From the NCBI GenBank assembly GCA_946699065.1, contig CAMPDV010000061.1, forward strand, positions 186,001 to 250,000: 64,000 bases of DNA. The letters run 5' to 3'. Each line of letters begins with the position of its first letter. The first letter of the stretch is position 1. The position numbers were made by a program, and so were the translations under genes. Source of the stretch: Loxodes magnus (taxonomy: Eukaryota; Ciliophora; Karyorelictea; Loxodida; Loxodidae). Shown one piece after another: positions 1 to 16,925 of the stretch. The notes below the pieces were generated by a model, which searched no databases, had not been told where the DNA came from, and was given only the letters and a program-made list of their open reading frames with translations.

Positions 1-95
1 GATGTTAGCCATTATTAGTTTCTTTCTGAAATATTTTGTTATTTTAGATCTGTAAAATTTATAGATATATTAAATTTAAATCTTAAATTAAAAAG

Positions 96-175
96 TGACA
101 GCGGTGGGATTTGAACCCACGCCCCGAAAGACTAGCACCTGAAGCTAGCGCCTTAGACCACTCGGCCACGCTGTC
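96..175 (-). tRNA. tRNA-Leu(CAG)
   Basis: This is a complete class II tRNA gene on the minus strand. The 7-bp acceptor stem (GACAGCG / CGCTGTC), the D-arm GGCCGAGTGG, a 5-bp anticodon stem CTAGC/GCTAG around the loop TTCAGGT (anticodon CAG, Leu), a variable arm of the class II type and the T-arm GGGTTCAAATCCC are all visible. CCA is not encoded. A run of five T follows the 3' end, as expected for RNA polymerase III termination. The tRNA is identical base for base to the copy at 15162-15241, in opposite orientation. Confidence 0.97.
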
Positions 176-5144: not shown

Positions 5145-8100
5145 ATGGATTCAGGGGTATGTTACTATTGCAAAAGTTAATTTAACCCTTAGAATAAAAT
5201 AAATAAAGTTCTTCCTTGCTAGCATATTTAGTGCTTAACTTGTTTATAGAATTAATATTAAATCAACGGGAGAGTTTAGTGTTTTAACTGCTCCTAAGTT
5301 TATGCTTTTAATCCTTAAGACTTTGTTACAAAAAGTGTGACTGAATAGTAAAACAAACAATAGAATCAAAATGAGCCTAATGAAACGCTATAAATTCTTC
5401 ATGATTGAAAAAAATAAGTTGTAGAAATGAAAAATGAGCTAGCTAATCATCAAAGTAAATTATTCATTAAGATAGCCGATATCTTGAAAAGGCTTTTCAG
5501 TTAAAGAGGTAATTAGTTTTAAAAAGAGTTATAAGAAATATCTGAAAATATAGACAAAGATATTAACTAATTGCAGAGCGCTTTGAAGTAAAATAACTAA
5601 ATAGTAGTCCTTAAATTCTAGGAGTTAAAAGCAAAATATAATCAAAATTATTTTTTACAGCTATAAGGAAACAAAAACTTAATAATGCAGTCTATTTCTA
5701 AAAATTCCGAAAAACTAAAAGAATTCATTCCCATTATTATAAACGAGCCTAATAAACTAAATCAAACTTAAGAAGTGCAAAAATAAAAAGAGCAATCAGA
5801 AATAATAAGTTTTATAAATTACGAAAACAATCACAATTTCTAAATTTTTATATAATCAGAAAAAGGAAAATAAGTAATGATAGAGGTTCAAAGTGAAAAC
5901 GAAATAAATCTAGTAAAATAAAAATTGCAAAAAAAGCTAGAAATAAATCCTGGTTTCTATTAACTAAAATATAATAATAAAATATTAGAGGATTAAGATG
6001 TTTTATCAGTGGTTGGAATTTAGAAAGAATCTGTTATCTAAATAGAGTTCATTAAATGTAAATTATATAATAATCCAGTCGGTAATTACTCTTTAATTTA
6101 TAGACAGTAAAATGATTTAGTCTTAGCATGTAAGGTTAATAATTAAAAGTGTGTAAGGAAAATAAAGCTTTTAGTTGGTAATTTTTTTGATTTTTATAGA
6201 AGGTACAAAGTAACAGTAAATAGGTTGTAAGTGAATAATTTTCAAAGGGAGTAATTTTAATTAAATATCAGAGAGTATATTTCTTAAATTTATCAGATTG
6301 TAAGATTTAATAGATTTAGAGTGTAAGAGTTTAAAATAAGGGCGTAAAAATATAAAAGCAACAGAATGTAAAATTTTAATTTTAGAGGGTAAAATATTAA
6401 ATTTTAAAGAGTGTAAGCTAAATAAATAAAAGAGAGTAAAACTCTTAAAAAATAATTAGAAGGTGAGTATTAATTAATTTTAGGAGGTATAAATGAAATT
6501 ATTATAGAGAGTAAGGAAATTGATATATAGATGGTATGCTCCATTAATATAAACAGAAAGTATTATTTTTTTAAATCAAAAGCTGGTAAAGGATTCATAT
6601 TCTAGCATGTAAGTTCTAAAATATTAAGTTTGTAAGATATTTAATAAATAATAGATTGTATGAATACTTAATGACAGAGATGCGTATGTTATAAAGTTTT
6701 AGATAGTAAGATAATTTCTAATAAAAGATTGTAAGATTTTTAATAGAAGCATGTAAAATAATAAAATAAAAGAAAGTAAATCATTTATTCAAATAGTCCG
6801 TAAGATAGCTAAAAATAAAGAAAGTAAGCAGTTAAAATAAATAGTTGGTAACATCTTTTATATGCAAGAGAGTAAGAAAATTAAGCTTTATAGGAGGTAT
6901 TAGAATTTACCTCCATAGCACGTAATTTTTAAACAATCAAAGTATGTAAGCAATGTAAAAGTGATTAGTGTGTAAAAATGTTATATTAAGAGAGTAAGTA
7001 AATGACATCATACAGAAAGTACAAATTTAATCCTAGAATGTATTTTAGTTAAATAACTAAGATAGTAAAATTATCTAAAATAGACGGTATTGATTTATTT
7101 TTACTTTAGAATGTAAATAATAAGTACTTAGAAGGTATACTTTTAATATTTTAGTTAGTAAAATATTGATAATTTATAGAAAGTAAAATATTGTAATTGG
7201 AACAGAATGTAAGAAATTTAATTCAAAGTCGGTAGGAAATTTAAAAATTTAGAGGGTAAAATCTAAGCTTCAAGGCGGTCAATATTTTAATATCTTAGGG
7301 AGTAAGTCATAATTAAATAGATGGTAAGTTAATTATTAATAGAACGTATAACTCAATAAATTATTAAGCATGTAAGAGAGATAATATTAATAGCCTGTAA
7401 GGATATATAAAATAAAGCTGGTATTTAATTTGAAATTAAGCGGGTGTAAATATATTTGAGAATGAATGTAAGTCATTTAATATTTAGATAATTAGATATT
7501 TTAATATAGTCTAAGGTAAGATGATTGACAAATAATCAGAATGTAAATTATATCAAAATTAAGTTGGTGAGCTTTTTAAATCCTTAAGCATGTAAGACTC
7601 AATTAAAAACCAGCAACAAGTAATTTCTAATACAAAAAAGTCGGTAACAAAATTATTTAGAGCGTAAAAAATATAAAAATAGCTTGTAAGATATAAAAAT
7701 TTAGCTGGTAAATTTATAAAATAGAGAGTAAAAATTGATATTATTAGTTTGTGAGAATTAATTAAGATGGTAAAAAAGACAAATGTAGAATGTTAAGACT
7801 TATATCAATTAGAAAGTAATATTTTAAATATTAAGAGGGTAATTTGAAGGCCTATCAAAAAAATTTAGATCGTATAGTTAATTATATTTAGCATGTGAGA
7901 ATTAAAAAAATATATAGAGAGTATATCAAATTAATATACACAAAGATTGTAAATATTTCAATCAGTTGGTTATATTAACTAGTCGTATAGAAGGTAAAAT
8001 ATTTTGTAAATTTAGAAGGTAAATTCTAATATTAGAGAGTAAAGTTTAATATAAAGGGAGCAAGAGTTTATTTACTTTATTAGAATGTATATTATGACAT

Positions 8101-8181
8101 ATTTAGAGTGTAAGTTTTAAAATTTCAGGAAGTAAGGCTTAAGGTATAAATAGAGAGTAAATTTATACTAAAACAGAGTGA
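5145..8181 (+). CDS. RING finger - coiled coil - ubiquitin-like protein with single-codon-exon tail
   Basis: This is a probable E3 ubiquitin ligase-type protein of about 397 aa after splicing. Exon 1 (5145-6057) encodes a C3HC4 RING finger (Cys6, Cys9, Cys25, His27, Cys30, Cys33, Cys46, Cys49), then a Gln/Lys-rich coiled coil at about residues 85-215. A ubiquitin-like domain follows at 232-304, with the ubiquitin hallmark GIQKESVIQI near its end (ubiquitin has NIQKESTLHL). One TGA at Trp (HDWKKQ) and many TAA/TAG as Gln are needed. From 6058 the gene breaks into 88 introns of mostly 17-25 nt, all in phase 1, separated by exons of nearly always 3 nt. The joined exons add residues 305-397, with segments such as FDTLFEGWKNQWQQ and SEIYEQKDPQNFEEERKQW. 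The stop is TGA 8179-8181, or possibly the in-frame TGA two codons earlier. The RING and Ubl calls are solid. The splicing model is inference from the pattern. Confidence 0.85.
5160..5291 (+). other. C3HC4 RING finger coding segment
   Basis: Residues 6-49 of the gene above have spacing C-x2-C-x15-C-x-H-x2-C-x2-C-x12-C-x2-C, which fits a zinc-binding RING. In the known family this domain recruits a ubiquitin-charged E2. It begins five residues after the ATG, so ATG 5145 is a natural start. Confidence 0.85.
5838..6057 (+). other. ubiquitin-like domain coding segment
   Basis: Residues 232-304 align with ubiquitin along the whole fold: NFQIFIQSEKGKQVMIEV corresponds to the first hairpin, a VKQKLQKKLEI helix follows, then QLKYNNKILED (ubiquitin QRLIFAGKQLED) and GIQKESVIQI. 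No C-terminal diGly is seen, so it is a fused Ubl rather than a processed ubiquitin. The segment ends at the first intron donor. Confidence 0.85.
6058..8176 (+). other. array of 88 tiny introns separated by single-codon exons
   Basis: The whole 2.1 kb parses as intron-exon-intron with no remainder. Introns 1-3 are 6058-6078, 6082-6103 and 6107-6126, with exons TCG, ACA and CAT between them. Donors are mostly GTAAG, GTAAA or GTATN, and acceptors are TAG, AAG or CAG. Of 87 internal exons, 82 are exactly 3 nt. The exceptions are 6 nt (6678-6683, 7510-7515, 7614-7619), 5 nt (7441-7445) and 7 nt (7461-7467), and the 5 and 7 together keep the frame. Intron lengths are about 15-30 nt, apart from one of 42 nt (7468-7509). 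One intron starts with GC (8060-8083). Introns are not copies of one another. Exon sequence is clearly richer in G and C than intron sequence. DNA-level excision of these segments would fit the pattern equally well, but the GTAAG donors favour splicing. Confidence 0.85.
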
Positions 8182-15161: not shown

Positions 15162-15241
15162 GACAGCGTGGCCGAGTGGTCTAAGGCGCTAGCTTCAGGT
15201 GCTAGTCTTTCGGGGCGTGGGTTCAAATCCCACCGCTGTCA
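15162..15241 (+). tRNA. tRNA-Leu(CAG), second copy
   Basis: This copy is identical over all 80 bases to the minus-strand gene at 96-175, with the same acceptor stem, CAG anticodon, class II variable arm and T-arm. It is followed by CTTTTTATTTTT, a good polymerase III terminator. Flanking DNA outside the gene and terminator is not similar to that of the first copy, so only the tRNA itself is shared. Confidence 0.97.
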
Positions 15242-16925
15242 CTTTTTATTTTTAAAACAAAAAGTTTTGTTTAAATTAGAACTAAATTATCTTCTTTATA
15301 TTTTAAAAGTTAAATTAATTTTATAAACATTCTAACTATATTTATTTGTATTAAACAAGTTGAAAATTATTTCTATTTCATACTTTTGCCAGCATATGCT
15401 GAAAGGCCTAATAGATTTATTACAATATACAGTCATTTATTTGAACTAAAAAATGTTATAACTTTCCTATTTAGAAAATTATTTTATATAATCTAAAATT
15501 AACTGAAGTCTTAACATCGATTTAATTTTGGTTAAGAAATATAATCTACTTTCGATATTTTATTTCACTATTTCTACAAGAGCCTACCATAAGCAACAAA
15601 TGAAATAAAAATAAGCATATTGATTAATAGAATAATTATAATAAATATCTTTATATTTATTATTTCATTTAGCTTATTAAATAAAATGAGTTACTCATAT
15701 ATTTTTCTTTTGCTTTAAAGATAATTTTTATCTATTTTATTTTTTATTGCTATAAGTTTAAATCTAATTATAAATATGATTTAAATCAAATTTGAAGAAA
15801 ATATTTATCTCAGAAAATAATAAATGGCCAACTCTTCTTTAGTTTATCGCTTTTATGAGCTTTAAGTTTCTCTTCTCTCTGGATTTTAAAAATAATGTTT
15901 AATTTTATAAATTTAATCTCTTTCCATCCTTCCAATTTATATTTACCTTATTAACTTCTACTTAAGTTTTGGCATTTTACATTTTATCTAACTTTCTAAA
16001 TTATTTTCTTATTTTCTTAATTTTGAAATTAATAATAGATATATCTAAAAAAATGTTGATTTGAAATAAATTAAGAATTTAAGTTAAATTGTATCTAAAA
16101 TATTTATTTCCTTAAAAAGCTGATATCATTTTTACAGACTACATTTCTTTTTTATAAGCATGACTCTTTTGATTAAAATATTCTAAATCCAACTAAATGA
16201 TTTTTGTTTGATTACTTTTATATTAATCTATTAATTTATAATTCTATAATTTGTATCTAAATATTTATTATTAATTAGAATTAAATCTAAATAATGACAG
16301 TCATTTAAGATATTTTTATTCTTTTTTATCTAAGAAGTATAAGAGTAATTTTGGTCATACAATCACCCTTTAAAACTTTCTTTATAATAAATGTGAATAA
16401 GCTTTATTTTTCTTTTGTCCAAGTTAATGAAAAGCTAAATTAATATACTTTAGATAAAAATTTTAGAGTAAAAGAAATGGAATTGGATAAAATGAAATAT
16501 CAACATTTGAGGAAATTAACTTTAAGCTTTTAAATTAACTTGGCTGCTTTCATAAAGCTTGAGATAATTTTGATTTAAATAAGATATAAATAAAATGTTC
16601 TATTCTTATAAATTATAGCATTTTATTTAATATTAATTTTAAATCTATTTCTATCAAACTATGCTTAGTTGCCATGCCAAAAGTCCATTTTAAAGTACTA
16701 AAATTTATTTCATAACTAGAAATTAAGTAAAAAGAAGAATTTTTTTTCCTTTGATAGGCAAGATCCTGCTTCTTAAAATTTTTTTAAGAAAAATCTTTAT
16801 TAAAAATACAGAGTTATTTATATTATATATTAAAATGGCTTCTAAAATATAACAGAACTTTGAACAGAATATTTAAACAGGAAAATTATCTAAAAAATAA
16901 AAAATAAAAAAGCGAAATAATTACA
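15242..16925. other. AT-rich intergenic region
   Basis: I see no confident gene. T-rich and A-rich segments alternate without clear coding texture. It separates the second tRNA-Leu from the ORF at 16926. Confidence 0.5.

Follow-up and report, generated by a model that had tools for sequence, protein, structure and literature searches.

Arrays of probable tiny introns and mostly single-codon exons behind ubiquitin-like domains in a ciliate genome

A 64,000-nt stretch of DNA, which in its whole length is called the window here, carries a gene for a protein with a RING-like finger, a coiled coil, and a ubiquitin-like (UBL) domain. Directly after the UBL-coding part comes an array of 88 tiny introns, and most of the exons between them consist of a single codon. 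Judged from its sequence, the mRNA of this gene past the UBL domain is probably assembled mostly from single-codon exons lying between spliceosomal introns of 16-25 nt, in a class shared with a kinase-UBL gene. The same layout is found elsewhere in the genome, and the array, first noticed in an earlier, sequence-only reading of the window, is not a single oddity. The genome searched comprises 705,730,643 bases in 7843 contigs. Together with this size and the lengths of the introns, the code in use, with TAA and TAG for glutamine and TGA for tryptophan as well as stop, fits Loxodes magnus; a dual meaning of UGA in Loxodes and a somatic assembly of 706 Mbp have been reported (PMC11441545; this and all other articles are cited for parts of their text). 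The window gene most likely belongs to the somatic genome of this karyorelict ciliate.

The array in the window and the gene that carries it

A dynamic-programming parse resolves positions 6058 to 8176 of the forward strand into 88 GT-AG introns and 87 inner exons. Inner exons of 3 nt make up 82 of the 87, the other five having 6, 6, 9, 7, and 28 nt, and 87 of the 88 introns are 16-25 nt long, the remaining one having 30 nt. These are the same counts of consecutive introns and of 3-nt spacings that had been claimed from the sequence alone. GT-AG boundaries in all 88 introns hold by construction of the parse; the donor reads GTA in 79 of them, and the acceptor is TAG, AAG, or CAG in 87. The GC content is 34% in the exon triplets and 12.6% in the intron cores.

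AG and GT are separated by exactly three nucleotides 84 times in the array, compared to 3.0 times expected from the flanks, and the other spacings between 0 and 10 nt occur 2 to 23 times. A pattern of two consecutive introns has 33 matches in the window versus 0.02 in shuffled sequences, and the longest chain of AGNNNGT in the real array has a length of 32, compared to a maximum of 5 among 1000 dinucleotide-Markov copies. The mutual similarity of the 21-nt intron cores (19 of the 88 introns) is 40.9%, versus 40.4% after shuffling. Thus, shared descent of the units, if there was any, is no longer visible, and a tandem repeat or minisatellite is ruled out by this comparison as the present state of the window array.

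In the protein encoded upstream of the array, Pfam identifies a ubiquitin domain (PF00240, E-value 8.8e-07, 29 bits at a cut-off of 25.4, residues 234-299), and the match to zf-RING_UBOX at residues 6-46 (0.0027, 18.1 bits) stays below the cut-off of 25.2. The UBL domain is 38% identical to that of the kinase-UBL gene described below. The first array intron splits a codon immediately past the UBL domain in phase 1; the sequence at this boundary reads AAA T|GTAAAT, in agreement with the earlier claim that the upstream frame is continued in this phase.

How far this frame reaches depends on the parse. Under a strict GT-AG parse, phase 1 yields 60 residues (FDTLFEGWK...EPSSAE) and then a TGA within the 7-nt exon at 7461-7467. 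The tail of 93 residues (...SSAGNEYIQEF...SKKQ, then TGA) proposed by the sequence-only reading is obtained only if 7446-7460 and the AT-AG segment 7491-7509 are also removed. It hinges on the chosen parse, since 7461-7515 breaks the frame unless both extra segments are taken out, and this region is the weak point of the longer reading; an assembly error may be the cause, or the site may be decaying or belong to a non-canonical intron. The tail had also been said to meet a TGA at its end. Such a codon is present right after the last intron, but the first in-frame TGA of the 93-residue reading lies earlier, is itself split by an intron (T8109 + G8129 A8130), and is likely the stop of this reading. 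An example of the predicted tail peptide is KFEGGNEPSSAGNEY. When the array is parsed without a preference for 3-nt exons, one GC-AG intron is used in the window and the segment 8057-8065 is not listed among the exons of unusual length.

Table 1. Positions of the array, its gene, and the kinase-UBL locus (window positions, except for the last line).
Feature	Position	Strand	Basis
Coding region ahead of the array: RING-like finger, coiled coil as judged by eye, UBL domain; 304 residues to the array	5145..6056	+	translation with TAA/TAG = Q, Pfam
In-frame TGA, codon 88, taken as tryptophan	5406..5408	+	translation
UBL domain adjoining the array	5835..6056	+	residues 231-304 of P0004
Array of 88 tiny introns, mostly single-codon exons between them	6058..8176	+	parse; also parses without 3-nt preference
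First array intron, 21 nt, phase 1, at the UBL end	6058..6078	+	parse
6-nt exon AGATGC	6678..6683	+	parse
Possible 15-nt intron required by the 93-residue reading	7446..7460	+	joined reading
7-nt exon with phase-1 TGA under the strict parse	7461..7467	+	parse
28-nt segment, frame-breaking under strict GT-AG rules; includes the AT-AG segment 7491-7509	7488..7515	+	parse
6-nt exon CAACAA	7614..7619	+	parse
9-nt exon GGAGCAAGA	8057..8065	+	parse
AGT (8107-8109), intron, GAA (8129-8131): split TGA in phase 1	8107..8131	+	parse
Phase-1 TGA right after the last intron (8157-8176)	8179..8181	+	parse
L062, kinase-UBL gene with array	C89:611414-614671		

Elsewhere in the window, a 23-kb satellite with strong GC skew, made of about 132 copies of a 174-bp unit matching at 99%, occupies 29439-52409, and two tRNA-Leu (CAG) genes are located at 95-175 (-) and 15162-15242 (+).

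Recurrence across the genome and conservation among relatives

Two consecutive introns with 3-nt exons have 39,112 matches genome-wide, versus 979 for a control with the pattern reversed. With 2-nt exons (875 matches, 910 in the control), 4-nt exons (749 and 433), or 6-nt exons (216 and 1045), there is little or no excess. Matches to the 4-nt-exon pattern cluster at G000:C24:1345981-1347673.

A DNA search led to arrays in the loci L009 to L014 and L018. Four of these loci (L009, L011, L012, and L018) each have a short RING-UBL gene with an array that starts at the identical point; of these genes, those of L009 and L018 were translated. A protein search for this RING-UBL family returned 2176 candidates; all of the 150 that were scored cover residues 1-171 of the query at 72-95% identity, and arrays are present in all 30 best members (L022-L051) as well as in L009, L011, and L012, which belong to the other 120. 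A first intron of the window type, with the same phase and place, occurs in L009, in L022-L051, and in the kinase-UBL gene L062.

The window protein is distant from this family (30% identity over the RING), and a search with it gave 121 further matches, nearly all of them on the RING part. Among the 19 relatives of the window protein that were examined, L062 is the only one with an array. The other 18, which are RING-only relatives (L053-L061, L063-L071), have no array in the examined stretch, where the longest chain is 3. In the relatives P0002 and P0005, Pfam finds PF00097 above and ubiquitin below the cut-off.

In L062, both the kinase domain (7.8e-60) and the C-terminal UBL domain (1.7e-10) are above the Pfam cut-offs. 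Within the kinase domain, two in-frame TGA codons at residues 305 and 316 of P0006 (ESWRAL, VCWKAPE) fit tryptophan. The array following the UBL domain consists of at least 62 introns of 16 to 30 nt; 54 exons have 3 nt, five have zero length, one has 21 nt, and one has 30 nt. Back-to-back introns (AG|GT) are located at locus positions 1901, 2759, 2778, 2930, and 2991, and one intron is of the GC-AG type. A second copy of the kinase-UBL gene is located at C89:740438, its UBL being 86% identical to that of the query. Since this kinase also carries a UBL domain and then an array, RING and kinase heads have the UBL-plus-array ending in common, and there is a gene class in which a UBL domain followed by an array stands under either head. 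The window and L062 are independent in sequence of the remaining arrays.

When 37 arrays were parsed without a preference for 3-nt exons, with zero-length exons and GC-AG introns allowed and with splice-site scores trained on the window's own introns, they gave 2594 introns. Of their 2557 inner exons, 2385 have 3 nt and 2529 a length divisible by three. These arrays are not independent of each other, as L018 is the L022 locus, the trio L009, L011, and L012 consists of near-copies, and many of the contigs resemble alternative haplotypes. The longest array parsed has 250 introns. Near the 3' end of the arrays in L009, L011, L012, L018, L010, and L031, a pair of exons of 14 and 22 nt recurs, which together keep the frame. 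Downstream of the array gene in L018, at about 5170-5260, a zinc-knuckle-like CX2CX4HX4C motif was noticed by eye, a possible mobile-element neighbor.

Conservation was analyzed in an alignment of 33 members over the first 22 introns, from which 8 identical rows were dropped to leave 25; in a stricter version with 21 members, L022-L025, which are shifted in two introns, were dropped as well. GT-AG is found in 536 of the 550 introns of the 25 relatives, and eight of the 14 exceptions come from the shifted rows. Gaps occur in 22 of 417 intron columns versus none of 105 exon columns, and the length varies in 12 of the 22 introns. Among the 21 members, gaps are confined to the introns (18 of 417 columns, with 0 of 105 in the exons; P = 0.03), and 4 of 88 GT/AG columns are variable versus 43 of 241 in the intron interior (P = 0.0013); both P values are optimistic because neither columns nor members are independent. 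Such a pattern would be expected in this family under a constraint on splice sites and on the length of the exons, but not on what the introns contain.

Tandem units are still recognizable in a part of the family. In L009, L010, and L011, unlike in the window, the 24-nt introns are near-identical and the triplets between them come from a small set; by eye, the arrangement resembles higher-order repeats. L013 and L014 contain 290 and 256 counted units, respectively, in 8 kb.

Probable splicing and possible translation of the arrays

The array in the window is likely spliced. The claim of a gene tail built codon by codon stands in so far as the segments behave like spliceosomal introns in their lengths and in the conservation of GT and AG; for its second half, the translation of the triplets, the tests conflict. 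A comparison with tubulin introns as a yardstick yielded nothing, as the tubulin gene L019 is uninterrupted.

A number of observations weigh against spliced and translated arrays. Concerning the introns, 27 of the 88 lengths in the window are divisible by three, which is no depletion, unlike in the published Loxodes genome, and the frame of the window is broken at 7488-7515 under strict rules. In the alignment of 25 rows, exon columns are as variable as intron columns or more so (41 of 105 versus 83 of 417). Furthermore, L013 and L014 carry some spacers of 2, 4, and 5 nt, and the conservation of splice sites in L014 is mixed, with 5.5 changes per position at GT, compared to 10.5 at AG and 10.2 in the interior. 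Such odd spacers and mutated acceptors are as expected of decaying copies, which L013 and L014 may be.

Concerning translation, the advantage of phase 1 in the window's codon-usage score (see below) is mostly due to triplet composition (-4.8, SD 4.0, after shuffling of the order), and the training set for this score contains the window's own upstream gene. Among ten arrays of the repeat family, phase 1 is top only in L018 and L031; L027 is a tie, phase 2 is top in L009, L011, L012, L010, and L038, and phase 0 in L029 and L026. In L062, phases 0 and 1 are tied in this score, phase 1 contains two TGA codons and is rich in cysteine, and phase 0 after the 30-nt exon gives NNSYLAVYVVLVFMFVVLHVHK, which is membrane-helix-like. 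Phase 1 shows no excess of synonymous changes in 25 relatives (0.168 versus 0.221 expected; 0.353 versus 0.237 in another phase). A TGA is created at the first junction in all 25 aligned relatives, and this codon would have to be either tryptophan or the stop. Retrocopies of joined tails were sought and none were found, although the empty result of this search proves nothing.

Several of these points could be accommodated if the introns were spliced but the array belonged to the 3' untranslated region, in which case translation would stop at a UGA on or close to the first junction and never reach the triplets. This unlikely, though serious, alternative would explain the T|GA at the first junction of the relatives, the lack of synonymous enrichment in phase 1, and the seven of ten repeat-family arrays in which phase 1 is not top by codon usage. 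However, the first junction of the window has no TGA, and its phase 1 is TGA-free for 60 residues. Counted over 666 triplets in the runs of six arrays, phase 1 is the poorest in TGA (13, 1, and 27 in phases 0, 1, and 2; 0, 0, and 7 in the window alone). The predominance of exon lengths divisible by three would be needless in an untranslated region, and internal UGA is a sense codon in this lineage, as seen in L062 and reported for Loxodes (PMC11441545). In the aligned 5' parts of the arrays, phase 1 has 5 TGA codons beyond its first codon (four from the shifted rows), versus 32 and 87 in the other phases. The codon-usage scores of the window are -28.3, +1.6, and -31.5 for phases 0, 1, and 2, so that phase 1 is ahead by about 30 natural-log units. 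On balance, the tail of the window gene is more probably translated than not; for the tails of the repeat family, this is less sure.

According to an improbable explanation, the arrays are unspliced DNA, namely a minisatellite without function that arose from a single intron-codon unit and is splice-like by descent. The near-identical 24-nt units in L009, L010, L011, L013, and L014, the higher-order duplication as judged by eye, and the AG positions of L014, which are as mutated as the interior, would all agree with such an origin. Yet the introns of the window have lost their mutual similarity while GT, AG, and the 3-nt spacing persist, those of L062 vary widely in length, and among the relatives, gaps spare the exons and GT and AG are conserved.

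It is very improbable that the array is usually taken out in one composite splice, which would run from the first donor to an acceptor late in the array and skip the triplets, the tiny introns representing alternative or unused sites. Joining 6057 to 8177 would indeed give a proper stop, as phase 1 then reads T|AG TGA, and skipping is frame-neutral. But an intron of 2.1 kb would be far beyond the usual range in Loxodes, where 93% of the introns have at most 25 nt (PMC11441545), and idle internal sites should decay, yet 88 persist in the window.

Finally, as the host is a ciliate, the segments might be internal eliminated sequences that are excised from the DNA. Classical internal eliminated sequences have not been detected in L. 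magnus according to the cited parts of PMC11441545, and the segments are retained in an assembly that fits the somatic one in size, which makes DNA-level excision unlikely and this explanation barely credible. In this respect, the earlier preference for splicing over excision still holds.

Proposed origin of the arrays and comparison with known systems

For spliced arrays of single-codon exons, we infer a mechanism in which each tiny intron would be recognized across itself and the introns would be removed one after another, every removal lengthening the upstream exon. Sequential removal would be the simplest order, as introns of about 20 nt that are 3 nt apart leave no room for two spliceosomes. 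Since nearly every exon consists of one codon or of zero nucleotides, skipping would keep the frame, and splicing noise would cost residues only. The arrays may grow via duplication of an intron-plus-codon unit; the 24-nt introns of L009, L010, and L011, which hardly differ from each other, suggest this. The intron interiors would later diverge, and splice sites and the exon length of 3 nt would stay, as in the window and L062. A wider proposal, to be regarded as tentative, is that the post-UBL tails of RING and kinase proteins form a gene architecture of their own, in which a tail of presumed function would be made with one codon per exon, through some 250 or more consecutive splicings in the longest array, in which in-frame skipping could give a vast set of tail variants, and which would grow by intron-plus-codon units.

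If the arrays are spliced as read, exon size is pushed to one codon, and this in series. They would then provide a test of a spliceosome acting on 20-nt introns by intron recognition alone, of fidelity across tens to hundreds of adjacent splicing events, and of the codon-sized exon as an adaptation to splicing noise. They would also suggest a route of protein growth by one residue per tandem duplication of an intron-codon unit, and the tails of these genes would escape any gene finder or RNA aligner that sets a lower limit on the length of exons.

Among the titles and openings of abstracts covered by a literature search whose scope did not include bioRxiv and most subscription journals, none describes arrays of single-codon exons; within this scope, the earlier statement that there is no described precedent is upheld. 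Recursive splicing with zero-length exons is known from cases that sit within long introns. L062 likewise has five AG|GT zero-length junctions, but amid 3-nt exons and 20-nt introns.

In other organisms, exons can be as small as a single codon or smaller. A fungal gene pair has two 3-nt exons (PMC5639578), and microexons of 1 nt to 15 nt occur in plants (PMC8831610, PMC12409088), but arrays of 80 to 250 are not described in the cited parts of these articles. Heterotrich ciliates have introns of 15 nt (PMC11441545, PMC9505925), which, like those of the Loxodes arrays, are extremely small and need compact recognition; arrays of single-codon exons are not mentioned for them in the cited parts of PMC11441545. 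Loxodes introns in general have a mean length of 19.3 nt and a mode of 17 nt, and lengths divisible by three are depleted genome-wide (PMC11441545). The window array is similar to these introns in being AT-rich, GT-AG (in the present parse), and about 17-25 nt long, but it lacks the depletion, and serial one-codon exons are not described in the same parts of that article.

The aphid bicycle and megacycle genes have many small internal exons, almost all in one phase, and the megacycle gene contains more than 100 microexons for about 2000 residues (PMC9168663). By calculation, megacycle exons are tens of nucleotides long, and neither single-codon exons nor a link to UBL domains is described in the cited parts of PMC9168663. 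The Loxodes arrays, in the window behind a protein that by Pfam consists of a UBL domain and a RING-like finger, nevertheless resemble the bicycle genes and the micro-exon genes of schistosomes in having many tiny internal exons of one phase.

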